In this document: positions 52,020-59,519 of the stretch, one piece after another
Numbering within the stretch: position 1 is the stretch's first letter
How the letters are laid out: the number at the start of each line of letters is the position of its first letter
Assembly (NCBI GenBank): GCA_026390695.1
Contig: JAPLFL010000052.1
Coordinates: forward strand, 1 to 64,000
Reading direction: 5' to 3'
DNA: 64,000 nucleotides
DNA from: Candidatus Kapaibacterium sp.
Lineage (GTDB): Bacteria > Bacteroidota > Ignavibacteria > Kapaibacteriales > UBA2268
The notes under the pieces: model-generated
Told to the model about the DNA's origin: nothing
The model's database searches: none
The model's input: only the letters and a program-made list of their open reading frames with translations
Position numbers and translations under genes: made by a program

Positions 52020-53354
52020 TTACCTCCCCACCACAAAAATGCCACCACTTACATTTCCTACCCGAACATAATAAACTCCCTCCGGCAGCGCAGAAACATC
52101 TATTCTTACTCCCTCTCCTTTGGAGAGGGCCGGGGTGAGGTCTCCAGAGGTTTGTGTGAGGTTCTTCAGTTCCTCCCCAAGCATATTATAAATCCGGATT
52201 AATGAACCTTCCGAAGGTTTCAAACCTTCGGAAGGTTGGCTAATATTTATAATATCAGAAACTGGATTTGGGCTAATCTTTATTCCAGCGGGCTGTGGCG
52301 GCTCTGGCTCTTTCACTGAAATATATCTCTGGTGGGAACGGAATAATCTGCCATCTTGCATTCCAACATAAATATAACCATCAGGGGAGGTTTCAATACA
52401 TGTAGGTTTATCATCATTATTTCTAATCATCATTGTATCGGATATGTCTTCAAAACTGCTTAAATCACTTTTATAGCGTCTTACATCATATTTAAAATCC
52501 TTAATGGTTGTGTCCCAATTCGTACCAGAGGTTATGAAATTATACATTGAATCTAATGCAAAAGGTCGATACAAAGGTTCATAATTAAAGTACAAATATC
52601 CTGTGTCTTTAACCCAAGTATTTCCATTATCTCTTGATATCACTTTGTCAGAATAATCCGAACTAATGCCGCAATCACTTTTCGGATTGAAAAGAATAGG
52701 GACATATTGATCTGGACAAGTTGTGCAATCAATTGGTTTCCTAACATATTTCCATGTTTTGCCTGTGTCTATGCTTTTTTGGATGGCGTAATCTTTTGAG
52801 CTTACAGCGAATAATTCGCCAAAATTATTAAATGCGATTCCTTTTGGCCAAGAATAATCCCAACAACCTCGGGCATACCAAGTATCTCCATAATTGGTAG
52901 AATAATATATTTGATGTCCAGTATTTGAACCGGTAACAATCATACCATTTGATAATTCTAAGAAATTTGTAGGATTAAGCCACTGCAAAATTCCTGTGCT
53001 ATCATCTGGAGCAGAATCTCCTGAATAATCCCAAGTTTTACCACCATCTTTGGAACGACTCACTCCACTACGACTCTGATAATTATATCCACTAACAAAA
53101 ATAAATCCATTCTTTGCTATAAAAAGATTATAAGGCACCCAATCTAATAATCTATCCCAAGAGATACCATTTTTAGATGATTTAGAAATTCCTGCATGTC
53201 CAGCGTAACCAATGAAAATATCATTGGATTTATTAAATGTCATACAAATGATTATAATACTATCTTTTGGACTATTTATTTCATCCCAAAATACCTCTTT
53301 CGAATATATAAATTCGGAAGATATAAATAATAAAATTATATAAATTTTAAGCAT
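52020..53354 (-). CDS. YCF48-like secreted protein with T9SS sorting domain, paralogue 1
   Basis: Protein of 444 residues. The start is the ATG at 53354 with GGAG 5 bases upstream; an ATG at 53405 lies inside the preceding terminator. Signal peptide: MLKIYIILLFISSEFIYS. Propeller strands include GISKSSKNGISWDRLL, SRSKDGGKTWDYSG and KSIDTGKTWKYVRK. The sorting domain begins ISPNPVSDIINIS and ends EGVYYVRVG. It contains two translated palindromes: EGLKPSEGS (52205-52237) and LTPALSKGEGV (52108-52140). The middle, from KDYAIQKSIDTGKTW to about SMYNFITSGT, is identical to paralogue 3, while the N-terminal part differs, so the gene is a mosaic. Confidence 0.85.
   Translation of the reverse strand: MLKIYIILLFISSEFIYSKEVFWDEINSPKDSIIIICMTFNKSNDIFIGYAGHAGISKSSKNGISWDRLLDWVPYNLFIAKNGFIFVSGYNYQSRSGVSRSKDGGKTWDYSGDSAPDDSTGILQWLNPTNFLELSNGMIVTGSNTGHQIYYSTNYGDTWYARGCWDYSWPKGIAFNNFGELFAVSSKDYAIQKSIDTGKTWKYVRKPIDCTTCPDQYVPILFNPKSDCGISSDYSDKVISRDNGNTWVKDTGYLYFNYEPLYRPFALDSMYNFITSGTNWDTTIKDFKYDVRRYKSDLSSFEDISDTMMIRNNDDKPTCIETSPDGYIYVGMQDGRLFRSHQRYISVKEPEPPQPAGIKISPNPVSDIINISQPSEGLKPSEGSLIRIYNMLGEELKNLTQTSGDLTPALSKGEGVRIDVSALPEGVYYVRVGNVSGGIFVVGR
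52108..52140. repeat. Palindromic element in coding sequence (GGAGAGGG family)
   Basis: CTCCCTCTCCTTTGGAGAGG followed by GCCGGGGTGAGG. It is translated in frame as LTPALSKGEGV inside the sorting domain. Same family as 5442-5524. Confidence 0.85.
52205..52237. repeat. Palindromic element in coding sequence (CCTTCCGAAGG family)
   Basis: AACCTTCCGAAGGTTTCAAA continuing to CCTTCGGAAGGTT is a 15-bp inverted repeat around CAA-like centre, itself made of two AACCTTCC/GGAAGGTT hairpins. Translated as EGLKPSEGS on the minus strand. Confidence 0.9.
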
Positions 53355-53359
53355 ATTAA

Positions 53360-53408
53360 CTCCAAAAAATAAAACATGAATAGTGATAAATACATCACTA
53401 TTCATGTT
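53360..53408 (-). terminator. Terminator after the small sorting-domain gene
   Basis: A perfect 15-bp stem AACATGAATAGTGAT / ATCACTATTCATGTT (53373-53408) is followed on the minus strand by TTTTATTTTTT. It lies just after the gene at 53424-53900. Confidence 0.88.
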
Positions 53409-53423
53409 TAAATTATCAACTAA

Positions 53424-53900
53424 TTATCTTTTTAAAATCATTTGTTCACGTGAAACTATATTGCCCTCAATGGATAATATACAAATATAATTTCCATTAA
53501 CTAAACCATCACCATAGAAGGTAGCAATGTTTTTCCCCTTTTTCAACTTACCCTGATATAATAATTTAATCTCTCTTCCTTCTATGTCTAATATCTGAAG
53601 TTTTACATCAACTTCTTCATTTAATCTAAATTCAATTATAGTTTGATTATCAAATGGATTCGGATAAATAGCCGTTATGCCCGTTACTTCTTCTTTTTCC
53701 TTAGTTGGTTCAGTTTGAGAGCCAATTGTTTTATAACTACCTCCAGGTGGCGGGGCTTCTGTGGTAACTATACGAGTGATATTACCCAATATTTGTGTAT
53801 GGTTATAAATAATCAAGGATTTTGAGCTGCTCTTGAAGTTCATCTCCGCTAAAGCAGTCAAATTGGTAATTATTAAAAGAATACATAGTATAAATTTCAT
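53424..53900 (-). CDS. Short exported protein consisting mainly of a T9SS sorting domain
   Basis: Protein of 158 residues. I start at the ATG at 53900 because AAAGG lies 5 bases upstream and a signal peptide follows (MKFILCILLIITNLTALAEM). A short linker (PPPGGSYKTIGSQTEPTKEK) leads to a full sorting domain: AIYPNPFDNQTIIEFRLNEE, then LQILDIEGREIKLLY and GNYICILSIEGN. Almost no passenger remains. Its 3' half is nearly repeated in the fragments at 55896 and 58028, so it is the intact member of that set. The mazF-like toxin gene ends 14 bp upstream. Confidence 0.82.
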   Translation of the reverse strand: MKFILCILLIITNLTALAEMNFKSSSKSLIIYNHTQILGNITRIVTTEAPPPGGSYKTIGSQTEPTKEKEEVTGITAIYPNPFDNQTIIEFRLNEEVDVKLQILDIEGREIKLLYQGKLKKGKNIATFYGDGLVNGNYICILSIEGNIVSREQMILKR

Positions 53901-53914
53901 GTGTACCTTTCTAT

Positions 53915-54259
53915 TCATGTTGGGATGGTTCTAATATTAGACAGTATTTTTTCTATTAAATCATAATAAGGTTTTTCGTTCATGCGAGCTATTGTTTTAA
54001 TTATCAGTGACTTTTCAATTGTAAGAATTTTATTGGTTCGTACTTCACTCCTTTGTACAAGCAAATTATCTAACATAAAATCTTCGATCAAAAACGAGAA
54101 ATTATCGTTGCGAATTACAGAGCTCATTTGAGCGATTATCACATCATTTGTCGAATTTAATCTGTAATTCGAGATAACAATTGCAGGTCGCTGTTTATAT
54201 TGAGTTAGGTTACTGAATGGAAACGGAACAATGATTATGTCTCGGGTAAAGAATTTCAT
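53915..54259 (-). CDS. MazF/PemK-family toxin
   Basis: Protein of 114 residues with the MazF fold: MKFFTRDIIIVPFPFSNLTQ, then KQRPAIVISNYRLN and the strand VIIAQMSSVI; the RP-A-(I/V)-V motif and F-P-F-S-(D/N) loop are typical. MazF proteins are sequence-specific endoribonucleases that cut mRNA. The start overlaps the upstream antitoxin stop by 4 bases (ATGA). The module lies next to a T9SS gene pair inside a tandem paralogue array. Confidence 0.87.
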   Translation of the reverse strand: MKFFTRDIIIVPFPFSNLTQYKQRPAIVISNYRLNSTNDVIIAQMSSVIRNDNFSFLIEDFMLDNLLVQRSEVRTNKILTIEKSLIIKTIARMNEKPYYDLIEKILSNIRTIPT

Positions 54260-54468
54260 ATATTATCCCAAACATCATTAGCTGGATTATTCCATTCTTC
54301 GGCAAATGAAGGTTCAGCAAGTTTATACCTTGACAAATTATCTGAAATAAAGTCACTATCAGGATTTAATATTGAAATTTGAGGAATTTTTAAAAAATTA
54401 ACCAATTCAATAATTTCACTATTATCCAGTAGTTCAATCTGACTTTTTATTGTTTCAAGTGTATTCAT
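54256..54468 (-). CDS. Antitoxin partner of the MazF-like toxin
   Basis: Protein of 70 residues: NTLETIKSQIELLDNSEIIE, then a tail LAEPSFAEEWNNPANDVWDN. The helical N-terminus followed by an acidic, Trp-containing disordered tail is typical of DUF2281-like antitoxins, whose tails plug the toxin active site. Its stop overlaps the toxin start. GGAG lies before the ATG. Confidence 0.82.
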   Translation of the reverse strand: MNTLETIKSQIELLDNSEIIELVNFLKIPQISILNPDSDFISDNLSRYKLAEPSFAEEWNNPANDVWDNI

Positions 54469-54521
54469 AATAACTCCAATTTATATAAAATAAATATCGA
54501 CGTTCAATTATATTTCTTATT

Positions 54522-55826
54522 TTACCTCCCCACCACAAAAACAGCACCGTTCACATTGCCAACTCGAACATAATAAACGCCTTCCGGCAGCGCAGAAACA
54601 TCGATTCTTCCTCCCCTCTCCTTCGGAGAGGGGCCGGGGGTGAGGTCTCCAGAGGTTTGTGTGAGGTTCTTCAGTTCTTCCCCAAGCATATTATAAATCC
54701 GGATTAATGAACCTTCCGAAGGTTTCAAACCTTCGGAAGGTTGGCTAATATTAATAAAATCACACGCTGGATTTGGGCTAATCTTTATTCCAGCGGGCTG
54801 CTGCGGCTCTGGCTCCTTCACTGAAACATAACGCTGGTGGGAACGGAATAATCTGCCATCTTGCATTCCAACATATATATAGCCGTCAGGAGAGGTTTCT
54901 ATGCAAGTTGGAACGTCGGAGCGACTATTAAAAATTCCATCAGTAATATCTTCATAGCTGCTAAAATCATTCTTGCAACGTCGTATTGTTCTTATATAAT
55001 CTTTAACAGAATCATGATATATCCATCCCGAAGTAATGAAATTGTACATGGAATCTATACAATAAGGAGGTAAAAAAACCGTTTCGACATCGCTTGTATC
55101 AATCCATGTTTTACCTTGATTATTTGTGATTGCTGCATGTATACCCTCTATACCATAATCACTTTTCGGATTGAAAAGAATAGGGACATATTGATCTGGA
55201 CAAGTTGTGCAATCAATTGGTTTCCTAACATATTTCCATGTTTTGCCTGTATCTATGCTTTTTTGGATGGCGTAATCTTTTGAGCTTACAGCGAATAATT
55301 CGCCAAAATTATTAAATGCGATTCCATTTGTGCCGGAATAATCCCAACATCCATGGGCAAACCATGTATCACCAAAATCGGTTGTATAGTGTATTTGTCG
55401 TGATGAAGACGAACCAGCTACAATCATTCCATTAGCTAATTCTATAAAATTACTTACCCAAAACCATTGCATTTTACCAGTACTATCGTCTGGAACTGAA
55501 TCACCTGTATGCTTCCAAGTAATTCCGTAATCTTTAGATATTACGACACTTATTCCAATACTATGTGCCGATCCAAACAATATTCTTTCCTTTGAAAAAA
55601 ATAAATTAGTAACAGTATATTGTGCACTTAAAAGCCATGTTTTCCCATTATCAGTTGATTTTCTAATATAATCTTCACCAACATATATGTTATTACTATC
55701 ATCAAAAGTAATTGCATTAATCCCAGAAATATTAATAGGTGGGTAATTTAATTTTTCCCATAGAAAATCTTTGGAATATAAAAAACTGGTTAGATATACG
55801 AACCAAATTAAAAATATTTTTATCAT
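54522..55826 (-). CDS. YCF48-like secreted protein with T9SS sorting domain, paralogue 2
   Basis: Protein of 434 residues; GGAG lies 5 bases before the ATG. Signal peptide MIKIFLIWFVYLTSFLYS. Strands NGKTWLLSAQYT, DYGITWKHTG, DFGDTWFAHG and KSIDTGKTWKYV form the propeller. FNNFGELFAVSSKDYAI through LFNPKSD is identical to paralogue 1, but the stretch after it (YGIEGIHAAITNNQGKTWID) is unlike paralogues 1 and 3. The sorting domain again holds EGLKPSEGS (54710-54742) and a longer GGAGAGGG-family insert read as LTPGPSPKERGGR (54608-54645). Confidence 0.85.
   Translation of the reverse strand: MIKIFLIWFVYLTSFLYSKDFLWEKLNYPPINISGINAITFDDSNNIYVGEDYIRKSTDNGKTWLLSAQYTVTNLFFSKERILFGSAHSIGISVVISKDYGITWKHTGDSVPDDSTGKMQWFWVSNFIELANGMIVAGSSSSRQIHYTTDFGDTWFAHGCWDYSGTNGIAFNNFGELFAVSSKDYAIQKSIDTGKTWKYVRKPIDCTTCPDQYVPILFNPKSDYGIEGIHAAITNNQGKTWIDTSDVETVFLPPYCIDSMYNFITSGWIYHDSVKDYIRTIRRCKNDFSSYEDITDGIFNSRSDVPTCIETSPDGYIYVGMQDGRLFRSHQRYVSVKEPEPQQPAGIKISPNPACDFINISQPSEGLKPSEGSLIRIYNMLGEELKNLTQTSGDLTPGPSPKERGGRIDVSALPEGVYYVRVGNVNGAVFVVGR
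54608..54645. repeat. Palindromic element in coding sequence (GGAGAGGG family)
   Basis: CTCCCCTCTCCTTCGGAGAG followed by GGGCCGGGGGTGAGG; translated as LTPGPSPKERGG. A near-identical copy is at 56703-56739. Confidence 0.85.
54710..54742. repeat. Palindromic element in coding sequence (CCTTCCGAAGG family)
   Basis: Identical to 52205-52237: AACCTTCCGAAGG, then TTTCAAACCTTCGGAAGG, read as EGLKPSEGS. Confidence 0.9.
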
Positions 55827-55895
55827 ATTAACTCCAAAAAATAAAACATTTATAATGATTTATTTATCACTATTCATGTATAAATTACCAATTAA

Positions 55896-56099
55896 TTATC
55901 TTTTTAAAATTATTTGCTCACGAGAAATTATATTGCCTTCGATGGATAAAATACAAATATAATTTCCATTGGATAAACCATCTCCATTAAATGTGGCAAT
56001 GTTTTTTCCTTTTTTCAATTTACCGTTATACAAAACTTTTATTCCCCGACCTTCCATATCAATTACTTTTAAATTAATAAACCTCATCGTGTGATCCAT
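55896..56099 (-). pseudogene. 5'-truncated T9SS sorting-domain gene
   Basis: The remaining frame carries only the last 50-odd residues of the sorting domain seen at 53424 (KVIDMEGRGIKVLYNGKLKK, then DGLSNGNYICILSIEGN). Upstream of IDMEGRG the reading frame runs into the tail of the RelE-like toxin, so the signal peptide and first half have been lost. The sequence stops matching at the same point as the fragment at 58028. Confidence 0.8.
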
Positions 56100-56355
56100 A
56101 AGACAATAAAATTATTTCTGTAAGATTGTGGTTAATGATCCTGATTTGGAAAATGATTCTTTGGTCGTATTCAACTGTACAAGCGTAATTCCCTAATAAA
56201 TTTCCCTTCAGTTTATGTGTATGAAGTAGTGGATGAAATATATCGGATTCGAGTAATTCTAATGCAAAATTAATTTTTTCTGCAAGTTCAGGTCTAAATT
56301 TGATGGACTTTTTTACAGCTCTTATGAAATTATGCGTCCACACAAACTCAATCAT
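56074..56355 (-). CDS. RelE/YafQ-family toxin
   Basis: Protein of 93 residues with the RelE/ParE fold: VWTHNFIRAVKKSIKFRPEL, LLESDIFHPLLHTHKLKGNL, then YACTVEYDQRIIFQIRIINH and EIILLSYGSHDEVY. HTHKLKG...Y and the final G-S-H-D-E-V-Y are typical of YafQ-type mRNA endonucleases. Its start overlaps the antitoxin stop by 4 bases (ATGA). Its last 26 bases overlap the frame of a truncated sorting-domain gene. Confidence 0.88.
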   Translation of the reverse strand: MIEFVWTHNFIRAVKKSIKFRPELAEKINFALELLESDIFHPLLHTHKLKGNLLGNYACTVEYDQRIIFQIRIINHNLTEIILLSYGSHDEVY

Positions 56356-56561
56356 GATAATATCTCTTTCTTTAATTTTTCACGATTACCGCGGGATACA
56401 TTATTGTTTTGATAATCAATCATTCCGACTTCAACATCCATTTCAATTTGTTTCCGATGTTCTGAAATTATTTTTTTATTTAAAATATCTACTAATAATT
56501 CCTGTTCTGAAATGTCGAACTCATCGACTGTATCTAAAAGTTCATCGAAAGTTGGTTTCAT
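56352..56561 (-). CDS. Antitoxin partner of the RelE-like toxin
   Basis: Protein of 69 residues, helical and acidic at the start (FDELLDTVDEFDISEQELLV) with a charged tail (SRGNREKLKKEILS). The order antitoxin then toxin with a 4-base overlap is usual. No DNA-binding motif can be named with confidence. Confidence 0.8.
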   Translation of the reverse strand: MKPTFDELLDTVDEFDISEQELLVDILNKKIISEHRKQIEMDVEVGMIDYQNNNVSRGNREKLKKEILS

Positions 56562-56614
56562 TATTTCCTCAAATTATTTAAAATTCAATTAAACGAATAA
56601 CACTTTTCTTTATT

Positions 56615-57952
56615 TTACCTCCCCACCACAAAAACAGCACCGTTCACATTGCCTACTCGAATATAATAAACTCCTTCCGGCAGCGCAGAAACATCGATTC
56701 TTCCTCCCCTCTCCTTCGGAGAGGGGCCGGGGGTGAGGTCTCCGGATGTCTGGGTGAGATTCTTAATCTCTTCCCCAAGCATATTATAAATCCGGATTAA
56801 TGAACCTTCCGAAGGTTTCAAACCTTCGGAAGGTTGGCTAATATTAATAAAATCACACGCTGGATTTGGGCTAATCTTTATTCCAGCGGGCTGCTGCGGC
56901 TCTGGCTCTTTCACAGAAACATATTTTTGATGGGAACGGAATAATCTGCCATCCCTCATTCCTACATAAATATAGCCATCTGGGGAAGTTTCTATGCACG
57001 AAGGTTTATCTGAATTTGTTTTAATGATCATTGTATCGGATATATCTTCAAAACTACTTAAATCACTTTTATAGCGTCTAATATCATATTTAAAATCCTT
57101 AATGGTTGTGTCCCAATGCGTACCAGAGGTTATGAAATTATACATTGAATCTAATGCAAAAGGTCGATATAAAGGCTCATAATTAAAGTACAAATATCCT
57201 GTGTCTTTAACCCAAGTATTTCCATTATCTCTTGATATCACTTTGTCAGAATAATCCGAACTAATTCCGCAATCACTTTTCGGATTGAAAAGGATAGGGA
57301 CATATTGATCTGGACAAGTTGTGCAATCAATTGGTTTCCTAACATATTTCCATGTTTTTCCAGTGTCAATGCTTTTTTGGATGGCGTAATCTTGGCTGCT
57401 GAGGCAGAATAGTTCGCCAAGATTATTTACTGCTATTCCCTGACAGTCTGAAGCCTTATCACCCATATAGATATCGTACCAAGAGTCCCCTTGATCGCTT
57501 GTAAAATAATACCATGAAAAATCATGATGACCTGCTAATATAGTTCCATCACCTAATTCGATAAAATTTGTTACTCGCATCCCATTATAATCTTGATAGA
57601 TTGTTCCAAAAACAGTTGCTAACTTTGTTGTATCCCAAGTTTTACCTCCATCCTTTGAGCGATATAGACAAGGACAATAATAATTCGTTGAAGAAAATAA
57701 ATAATTATTACTTGAAACAAAAAGACATTGTGGTATTCTATCAAAAATTATTTCCCATGATTTCCCATGATTAGTTGATTTATATATTGAACCATAAGTA
57801 AAAGCTGCAAAATATATATTCCCATTTTTATCAAATGTTATTGATTCAATTTCTTGTGTTGAATCTTTTTGAAAATATAACAAATCCCAAAAATTTTCCT
57901 TTGAAAAAGCATAAGACTGTAGTATAGTCAATAAAATAATAATTTTCATCAT
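56615..57952 (-). CDS. YCF48-like secreted protein with T9SS sorting domain, paralogue 3
   Basis: Protein of 445 residues; the start is the ATG at 57952 with GGAG 5 bases upstream. Signal peptide MMKIIILLTILQSYAFS. Strands STNHGKSWEIIF, RSKDGGKTWDTTK and SDQGDSWYDIY differ from the other paralogues, whereas DYAIQKSIDTGKTWKYVRKP to about SMYNFITSGT equals paralogue 1. The sorting domain carries both translated palindromes, EGLKPSEGS (56803-56835) and LTPGPSPKERGGR (56703-56739), like paralogue 2. Confidence 0.85.
   Translation of the reverse strand: MMKIIILLTILQSYAFSKENFWDLLYFQKDSTQEIESITFDKNGNIYFAAFTYGSIYKSTNHGKSWEIIFDRIPQCLFVSSNNYLFSSTNYYCPCLYRSKDGGKTWDTTKLATVFGTIYQDYNGMRVTNFIELGDGTILAGHHDFSWYYFTSDQGDSWYDIYMGDKASDCQGIAVNNLGELFCLSSQDYAIQKSIDTGKTWKYVRKPIDCTTCPDQYVPILFNPKSDCGISSDYSDKVISRDNGNTWVKDTGYLYFNYEPLYRPFALDSMYNFITSGTHWDTTIKDFKYDIRRYKSDLSSFEDISDTMIIKTNSDKPSCIETSPDGYIYVGMRDGRLFRSHQKYVSVKEPEPQQPAGIKISPNPACDFINISQPSEGLKPSEGSLIRIYNMLGEEIKNLTQTSGDLTPGPSPKERGGRIDVSALPEGVYYIRVGNVNGAVFVVGR
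56703..56739. repeat. Palindromic element in coding sequence (GGAGAGGG family)
   Basis: CTCCCCTCTCCTTCGGAGAG then GGGCCGGGGGTGAGG; in frame in paralogue 3. Confidence 0.85.
56803..56835. repeat. Palindromic element in coding sequence (CCTTCCGAAGG family)
   Basis: Third identical copy of the 33-bp element at 52205 and 54710; in frame in paralogue 3. Confidence 0.9.
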
Positions 57953-57973
57953 TTCAACTCCAAATATAAAAGA

Positions 57974-58010
57974 ACCTGTATCATGCAATTAATATCAGCA
58001 CTATACAGGT
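57974..58010 (-). terminator. Hairpin after the third sorting-domain fragment
   Basis: ACCTGTAT and ATACAGGT form an 8-bp stem around a 21-base loop, at the position equivalent to the terminator at 53373-53408. On the minus strand TCTTTTATATTTGG follows. Confidence 0.55.
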
Positions 58011-58027
58011 CCAAAGTTTAAAAATTA

Positions 58028-58202
58028 TTATCTATTTAAAATGATCTTCTGCATTGAAATTACATTACCATCCAAAGAAAGTAAGCATACATAAGAACCA
58101 TTTACAATGCCATCACTATAAAATGTAGCTATATTATTTCCTTTTTTCAATTTTCCATTATACAAAACTTTTATTCCCCGACCTTCCATATCCATAATTT
58201 TA
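58028..58202 (-). pseudogene. 5'-truncated T9SS sorting-domain fragment
   Basis: Minus-strand reading gives IMDMEGRGIKVLYNGKLKKG, NNIATFYSDGIVNGSYVCLL and SLDGNVISMQKIILNR then stop. This equals the second half of the gene at 53424, diverged. Upstream the match ends just before IMDMEGRG, at the same place as in the fragment at 55896; a fibronectin-like gene follows. No start with a ribosome site is evident. Confidence 0.8.
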
Positions 58203-58236
58203 AAATAAATATAAATTGATTATCATATTCCAGTTA

Positions 58237-58878
58237 CTATACCGGACTTGCTGCTCCTACTGCGTCATTTATTATCACAATATTTGACGGCAGTGAGAAT
58301 AATGTCCCGTGCTGTGCCCTCACACGATATGCTACCTTCTGATTCGGTGGCTGATTATCGTGTATAAATTTAGTCTTAGTGATTGTCACAACCGAAACAA
58401 ACGTTGTGGCAGTCCCATATCTCGCCTCCAATGAATATAAAGTTCCCGAAGCATTACCGTTAGCCTTCCATTTCAACTGATAAGCGCCCGGTTGCAGAAC
58501 ATCATACACCAAATCAATCGGCGGAAACGGAACCGCTGCCGGTGGCGGGTGCGAACCTGCAACAGTCAAGCCCATACTCGCTTTTAATGATTCGCTCACG
58601 GAAACATTTTTCTGAATCTTTTGAGCCAATTCCCTTGCTTTTGCCACCAATGATGCTCTTGCTGCATCTTTTGCCTGAGTTGCGGCAGAGGCTGCATCGC
58701 GCTTCATCTCGAAATCAGTCATTGCGGCATCGAAATTAGATTTAAGAGTAGAGATTGCCGTATAATCTCCCGAAAGTAAACCTAATGTAGTTAAATTAGT
58801 GCCCATTATGGATGAAAACGGTTCCATCCACAACTGTAAGTCTGTGTCCCTTTTAGGGATATAATCCCGTCCTGACAT
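58237..58878 (-). CDS. Protein with helical N-terminus and fibronectin type III-like C-terminus
   Basis: Protein of 213 residues. I start at the ATG at 58878: GAGG sits 6 bases upstream, whereas the ATG at 58890 has none. Residues about 35-105 form long Ala-rich helices (AASAATQAKDAARASLVAKA, then RELAQKIQKNV). After a Pro-rich linker (GSHPPPAAVPFPPID) residues about 125-205 are fibronectin type III-like (GAYQLKWKANGNASGTLYSL, KVAYRVRAQHGTLFSLPS). No signal peptide or sorting domain is seen. The function is unknown. It is followed upstream by a minisatellite. Confidence 0.75.
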   Translation of the reverse strand: MSGRDYIPKRDTDLQLWMEPFSSIMGTNLTTLGLLSGDYTAISTLKSNFDAAMTDFEMKRDAASAATQAKDAARASLVAKARELAQKIQKNVSVSESLKASMGLTVAGSHPPPAAVPFPPIDLVYDVLQPGAYQLKWKANGNASGTLYSLEARYGTATTFVSVVTITKTKFIHDNQPPNQKVAYRVRAQHGTLFSLPSNIVIINDAVGAASPV

Positions 58879-58960
58879 AATAGACCTCATTTTTTTGAAT
58901 AAACAGTTAATTAGTATATATTAGGATATAATCCTCTGTTTAAATCATTTGGTAAACTCA

Positions 58961-59215
58961 ATTTTTACCGGCACTCTTGCAATTTTTACCGGCACTCTTG
59001 CAGTTTTTACCGGCACTCTTGCAGTTTTTACCGGCACTCTTGCAGTTTTTACCGGCACTCTTGCAATTTATACCGGCATTCTTGCAATTTATACCGGCAT
59101 TCTTGCAATTTATACCGGCACTCTTGCAATTTATACCGGCACTCTTGCAATTTTCACCGGTATTTTCTCTTTCGTTGCCGGTATTTTCTCTTCTGTTGCC
59201 GGCATTATTTCTTAC
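58961..59215. repeat. Minisatellite, 21-bp period
   Basis: Nine close units built on TTTTACCGGCACTCTTGCA with two more A/T bases, followed by about three decayed units containing GTTGCCGG. Adjacent variants (TTTTTACCGG, TTTATACCGG; CACTC, CATTC) occur in runs, showing local duplication. Unrelated in sequence to the arrays at 6335 and 9271 but with the same period. Confidence 0.92.
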
Positions 59216-59519
59216 GTTGTTTATACTTTTTCTTTCGCTACCTGCACTATATTCAAATATATTGTATAAGACTCATTTATTATTTATTTATTTTATTGTA
59301 TTGGATAAAAAAAATAAATTTATTTTTGATTCATGTAATTTATACAGATTCAAGAATTATTTGAATGCTGATATTTGCGACAGTATGTTGTGGTGAATCC
59401 ACAAAATCCGTTAGCGGATTGAGGAATAATCAACCTTGTAAAATATTTAAATAAACCCAAATATTTCATTAAGATTTAACGTAATTGAAATATTATACGT
59501 TAATAAAGAGCTTTTTTAA

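Follow-up and report, generated by a model that had tools for sequence, protein, structure and literature searches.

Mosaic beta-propeller genes and toxin-antitoxin pairs in a tandem array of T9SS cargo genes of a Candidatus Kapaibacterium genome

Organization of the array

The window analysed here is the stretch of DNA formed by bases 1-64000 of contig C61, in a genome of 4.63 Mb in 129 contigs. At 52020-58219, three co-directional tandem units lie on the minus strand, each made of a 3' T9SS sorting-domain (CTD) piece followed by a gene for a BNR/Asp-box propeller protein of about 440 aa with a T9SS CTD of its own. In the order of transcription, an FN3-like gene is followed by CTD stub 3, the propeller gene of unit 3 (U3), an antitoxin gene with a RelE/YafQ toxin gene, and CTD stub 2; the propeller gene of unit 2 (U2), an antitoxin gene with a PemK/MazF toxin gene, an intact small T9SS gene and the propeller gene of unit 1 (U1) come next. 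All genes between 52020 and 58890 are on the minus strand, and the features are listed below in the same order.

58237-58890, minus strand: FN3-like protein of 217 aa (ORF list, genome matches)
58028-58219, minus strand: CTD stub of unit 3, remnant of the 3' end of a small T9SS gene now lost, without signal peptide
57950-58027, minus strand: leader with a hairpin (z -3.8) upstream of the U3 SD
56615-57949, minus strand: U3, BNR/Asp-box propeller protein with T9SS type A CTD (family models)
56352-56561, minus strand: putative antitoxin partner of RelE/YafQ (in relatives, too, a similar protein is encoded ahead of the toxin)
56074-56355, minus strand: RelE/YafQ-family toxin, complete, with natural C-terminus GSHDEVY followed by stop (family models, relatives)
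55896-56079, minus strand: unit 2 CTD stub, directly after and overlapping the RelE stop codon
55827-55895, minus strand: leader with a weaker hairpin (z -1.7) and a T-run upstream of the U2 SD
54522-55826, minus strand: U2, BNR/Asp-box propeller protein with T9SS type A CTD (family models)
54256-54468, minus strand: putative antitoxin partner of PemK/MazF, without a family match
53915-54259, minus strand: PemK/MazF-family toxin (family model)
53424-53918, minus strand: intact small T9SS type A protein of unit 1, start at 53918 or 53900 (family models)
53355-53423, minus strand: leader ending shortly before the U1 SD, with a terminator-like element made of a 17-bp hairpin (z -6.0) and then a T-run
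52020-53354, minus strand: U1, BNR/Asp-box propeller protein with T9SS type A CTD (family models)

The intact small gene and both stubs end 70-80 nt before their respective paralogous propeller genes. ORFs, family matches and coordinates all bear out the three tandem units of sorting-domain piece and propeller paralogue that had been described in an earlier note on this DNA. Among 54 family genomes the tandem array was found in no other genome, with one distant homologue each in G001 and G002, and a search for relatives in viral contigs or plasmids returned none. A 21-nt unit is repeated in tandem at 58917-59251, in the interval that separates the FN3-like gene from a radical SAM-like gene.

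Propeller proteins, sorting domains and leaders

U1, U2 and U3 are all complete, with an apparent signal peptide, an SD and a CTD. In Pfam and NCBIfam scans the propeller proteins matched BNR/Asp-box, Sortilin-Vps10-like, F510_1955-like and Por_Secre_tail models and no YCF48 (PSII_BNR) model, so that the YCF48 name previously given to these paralogues is not retained. A structure model of low confidence (mean pLDDT 50.5) matches beta-propellers including solved YCF48 and PorZ. The array proteins share their family matches and CTD with BNR/Asp-box (sortilin-like, YCF48-like) beta-propeller proteins bearing a T9SS type A sorting domain, whereas the likeness in fold is that of the low-confidence model only.

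TIGR04183 scored 25.9 bits in U1, 27.4 in U2 and 34.9 in the small protein (cut-off 23) and PF18962 scored 33.5 in U3 (cut-off 27), which places all four proteins among T9SS type A cargo by a CTD above a curated cut-off. Since the genome also encodes the T9SS sortase PorU (NF033707, 758.8 bits against a cut-off of 420) and at least 150 T9SS CTDs, secretion of the propeller proteins by this system is the natural expectation, and they would presumably be displayed at the cell surface by the same route.

A hairpin lies close to the SD of every propeller gene (z -6.0 in U1, -1.7 in U2 and -3.8 in U3). Because the U1 hairpin, with a T-run behind it, is scored as a terminator-like structure, and because pairing is retained in the U3 leader despite a different stem sequence, transcriptional attenuation of the propeller genes is possible.

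The CTD loops of U1, U2 and U3 also carry in-frame palindromic inserts, at 52207-52235, 54712-54740 and 56805-56833 respectively. Further palindromic CTD inserts were seen in G000 at C81:73218 (L021) and C13:40998 (L022), in G002 at L037:7098-9290 and in G001 at L036:9041-11197, the encoded peptides being PSEGLKPSEG and LTPGPSPKERG and, in G001, GANGRSPLQ and VGVIHELPLQ. The first palindromic element occurs at about 20 sites in the array genome, many of them outside genes. In 60 sampled CTDs (17.1 kb) there were 5 strong palindromes; other ORF sequence held 17 over 100.7 kb, and sequence outside ORFs 19 over 22.8 kb. The idea of CTD loops as palindrome hot spots was consequently set aside, these 60 CTDs giving no clear enrichment over other coding sequence. 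Earlier reports of palindrome-encoded peptides were not found in the literature searched.

Mosaic structure of the propeller genes

In the codon alignment of the three propeller genes, the N-terminal halves are 52-59% identical in nucleotide sequence and about 50% identical at third positions. Along the genes, pairwise identity jumps between about 55% and 97-100% at sharp boundaries, silent sites included. U1 and U2 are 99.2% identical over alignment codons 185-228, U1 and U3 97.4% over codons 229-305, where the other two pairs stand at about 59%, and U2 and U3 100% over codons 361-398 and 97.5% over codons 413-452. The longest exact shared stretch is 140 nt, in the CTD of U2 and U3, and the others are of at most 94 nt.

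The statistical test took in only those codons that are silent among the three propeller genes and informative. Fifteen consecutive codons of this kind group U1 with U3, a run reached in none of 20,000 shuffles, and switches between grouping patterns were fewer than expected by chance (p 0.00045). Divergent N-terminal halves next to near-identical blocks, as noted earlier, are thus found far beyond chance, and the gene conversion proposed on their account gains strong support from the silent run. Since constraint at the protein level alone would not give this pattern at silent sites, ectopic gene conversion or an equivalent recombination among the propeller genes is well supported by these alignments, with conversion specifically as the presumed mechanism of the mosaic.

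Such tracts, in genes of secreted and probably surface-anchored proteins with divergent N-terminal propeller halves, are also what would be expected of a surface-variation locus, in which the propeller genes act as mutual donors and frequent recombination varies an exposed surface protein within the population. The tracts of this array, however, homogenise the CTD and the centre rather than shuffling the divergent N-terminal half. Moreover, known systems of the pilE/pilS or vlsE type have one expression site and silent truncated donors, whereas the three propeller genes here are full length, each with signal peptide, SD and CTD, and no silent cassette array was found. The description of the locus as a surface-variation cassette is therefore not upheld, and surface variation in general is regarded as an unlikely explanation of the array.

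The intact small T9SS gene and the two stubs

The intact small T9SS gene begins with an ATG at 53918, or at 53900 with a better SD, and its stop is at 53424. As had been proposed, this first sorting-domain gene is intact and the other two units hold 3' fragments (55896-56079 and 58028-58219). In stub 2, CTD homology begins right after the TAA of the RelE gene, at about residue 107 of the intact small protein. Stub 3 is in frame from just after an in-frame stop and can be aligned to the intact protein about 4-5 codons further, to about residues 102-103; HMM matches start at residue 105 in stub 2 and at residue 102 in stub 3. The truncation points accordingly differ by about 12-15 nt.

A block of 35 nt is exactly identical between the stubs (56026-56060 in unit 2, 58158-58192 in unit 3) and starts in both at the D codon of D-M-E-G-R. 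Over the 165 nt compared, all 40 differences between the stubs lie after this block (chance about 1.5e-5), and upstream of it their nucleotide similarity is not significant. Most simply, the identical 35 nt would be another conversion tract. The claim that both stubs are cut at the same codon is hence right in that the breakpoints are close and share this block from the D codon on, but not to the codon, stub 3 being alignable further.

For the intact small gene of unit 1 and the stub of unit 2, dN was 0.086 and dS 1.32, and for the stubs of units 2 and 3 the values were 0.195 and 0.94; these rest on 54 codons with silent sites near saturation and are to be read as rough. Most differences among the two stubs and the intact gene are thus silent, and for this reason the stubs probably descend from working genes that diverged before being truncated, or may still be translated. 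Having lost their N-terminus and scoring 23.2 and 13.2 bits with TIGR04183 (cut-off 23), they fall outside T9SS cargo as defined by a signal peptide and a complete CTD, and they are presumably non-functional.

Toxin-antitoxin pairs and the FN3-like gene

One toxin-antitoxin (TA) pair lies in each interval of the array, PemK/MazF between U2 and U1 and RelE/YafQ between U3 and U2. The PemK/MazF toxin is assigned by PF02452 (46.1 bits, cut-off 23.1) and is preceded by a 70-aa gene that overlaps it by 4 nt. The RelE/YafQ toxin, with a conserved antitoxin partner, is assigned by TIGR02385 (32.3 bits, cut-off 27.9) and scores just below the cut-off with PF15738 (29.2 against 30). From family models and gene order, both are predicted to be type II TA-like pairs, in agreement with the TA modules first reported between the units. 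PADLOC gave no match for the TA genes of the array, and its two antitoxins are not detectably related to each other.

Relatives of the RelE toxin were found in 20 of 54 family genomes and in 12 of 27 genera. At the seven loci read they form complete antitoxin-toxin pairs in differing neighbourhoods, the toxin having an HDEVY-type end followed by a stop. Because these relatives end alike, with HDEVY or similar and then a stop, the RelE toxin of the array is considered complete. It is the only one of the two toxins to abut a truncated gene, the end of the PemK/MazF toxin gene overlapping the start of the intact small T9SS gene by the 4 nt ATGA.

The original suggestion that TA modules were inserted at a constant breakpoint therefore fits the junction of stub 2 with RelE and not the PemK/MazF pair. 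The stubs are indeed joined to different DNA, the RelE pair at stub 2 and, at stub 3, the FN3-like gene, which is not a TA gene. With junctions about 4-5 codons apart and one stub devoid of TA genes, site-specific insertion of TA pairs at one codon was rejected.

Both antitoxin genes start exactly 53 nt after a propeller stop codon. The two spacers (54469-54521 and 56562-56614) agree at 31 of 53 positions (p 0.0007 by shuffling; 1 of 2,946 AT-rich 53-mers of the window), a similarity that is not significant in gapped alignment (p 0.10), and other antitoxins in these genomes carry similar AT-rich SD leaders. The region downstream of the propeller genes is at most a candidate for a common TA landing site.

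The FN3-like gene is one of 15 matches in the genome, and its family received no significant Pfam or NCBIfam assignment. The array copy has no hairpin right after its stop, where several other copies have a terminator-like inverted repeat by eye. In the copy on contig C56 (L140), a palindromic repeat and then a truncated CTD tail follow within a few bases of the stop, which is the second instance of a CTD remnant next to a gene of this family.

Elsewhere, L053 (G000:C21:11695-28027) holds several small TA-like pairs (PemK, PIN-like, HicAB-like, BrnT-like and RelE-like by eye) among repeated elements of about 80-110 nt and could be a cassette-like TA island.

The occupation of every interval by a TA pair, in a genome of 4.6 Mb with only 11 toxin matches (six PemK and five RelE-type), raises the question of a guarding role, whereby a crossover that deletes a unit would also remove its TA pair and lead to post-segregational killing while non-crossover conversion remains permitted. 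Stabilisation of the Vibrio superintegron by its TA cassettes is known to work through such killing (PMC11551772). ORF inspection and flank blastn of the nine other PemK/RelE loci, on the other hand, revealed no TA pair between paralogous genes (0/9), several of these loci adjoining short dispersed repeats, and the RelE module is common across the family in varied contexts. Genome-wide enrichment of TA pairs between paralogues was thereby rejected as well, and since the nine other loci show none in this position, two TA pairs in one 7-kb array are thus a mild coincidence without a pattern. Guarding of the array is held to be improbable; that TA pairs were selected to sit between tandem paralogues, conversion being allowed and unit loss lethal, as a TA-guarded array under concerted evolution outside integrons, is held to be about equally improbable. 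If TA pairs did protect such arrays, TA stabilisation would reach beyond integrons and plasmids to ordinary tandem paralogues.

Discussion

The unit structure, the mosaic blocks, the complete toxin genes, the stubs and their mainly silent divergence can be read directly from the DNA. That an assembler joined or patched paralogous units from one or several strains into such a mosaic is highly improbable: the genome is fragmented into its 129 contigs, the U2/U3 repeat is exact for up to 140 nt, so that a swap of the flanking arms, which hold the two TA pairs, is conceivable, but the other exact shared stretches are interrupted by scattered differences and the array lies on a 116-kb contig with all frames intact. 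An assembly error is therefore unlikely, if less so at the 140-nt block itself.

The array is probably a tandem duplication peculiar to this lineage; it would be under concerted evolution and have received accessory modules between its units. The three units would have arisen by tandem duplication of a two-gene unit, made of a small T9SS surface protein and a T9SS beta-propeller protein. The propeller genes would then have exchanged sequence by ectopic gene conversion or recombination, which kept the central block and CTD near-identical while the N-terminal propeller half stayed divergent. The PemK/MazF pair, the RelE/YafQ pair and a copy of the multicopy FN3-like gene would have entered the spaces between units, and at two of the three joints the small T9SS gene would have lost its 5' part to the incoming module or to a deletion, so that the CTD stubs remained. 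Because no close relative carries the array, this order of duplication, conversion and insertion is a reconstruction rather than an observation.

Two known systems offer points of comparison. In Porphyromonas gingivalis, T9SS surface proteins (gingipain and haemagglutinin adhesins) exchange domains between strains, and gene conversion has been invoked (PMC5266723). The array likewise appears to consist of T9SS cargo genes made mosaic by recombination or conversion, but it is known from one genome, and TA pairs separate its three tandem propeller genes. The superintegron of Vibrio cholerae is a repetitive array stabilised by TA cassettes (PMC11551772), and like the present locus it has type II TA pairs scattered among its repeats; here, by contrast, the repeats are the coding units themselves, and stabilisation by TA pairs would be by analogy only. 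The locus resembles both systems; it would fall under tandem paralogues under concerted evolution, which is a known phenomenon.

Taken together, the locus is a case of ordinary genome remodelling rather than a demonstrated surface-variation machine. Under concerted evolution following lineage-specific duplication, it would provide a clean example of this process in tandem T9SS surface-protein genes, in a genome rich in T9SS cargo; a TA pair and a multicopy gene now occupy the former position of a cargo gene's 5' end, and CTD stubs are left behind.
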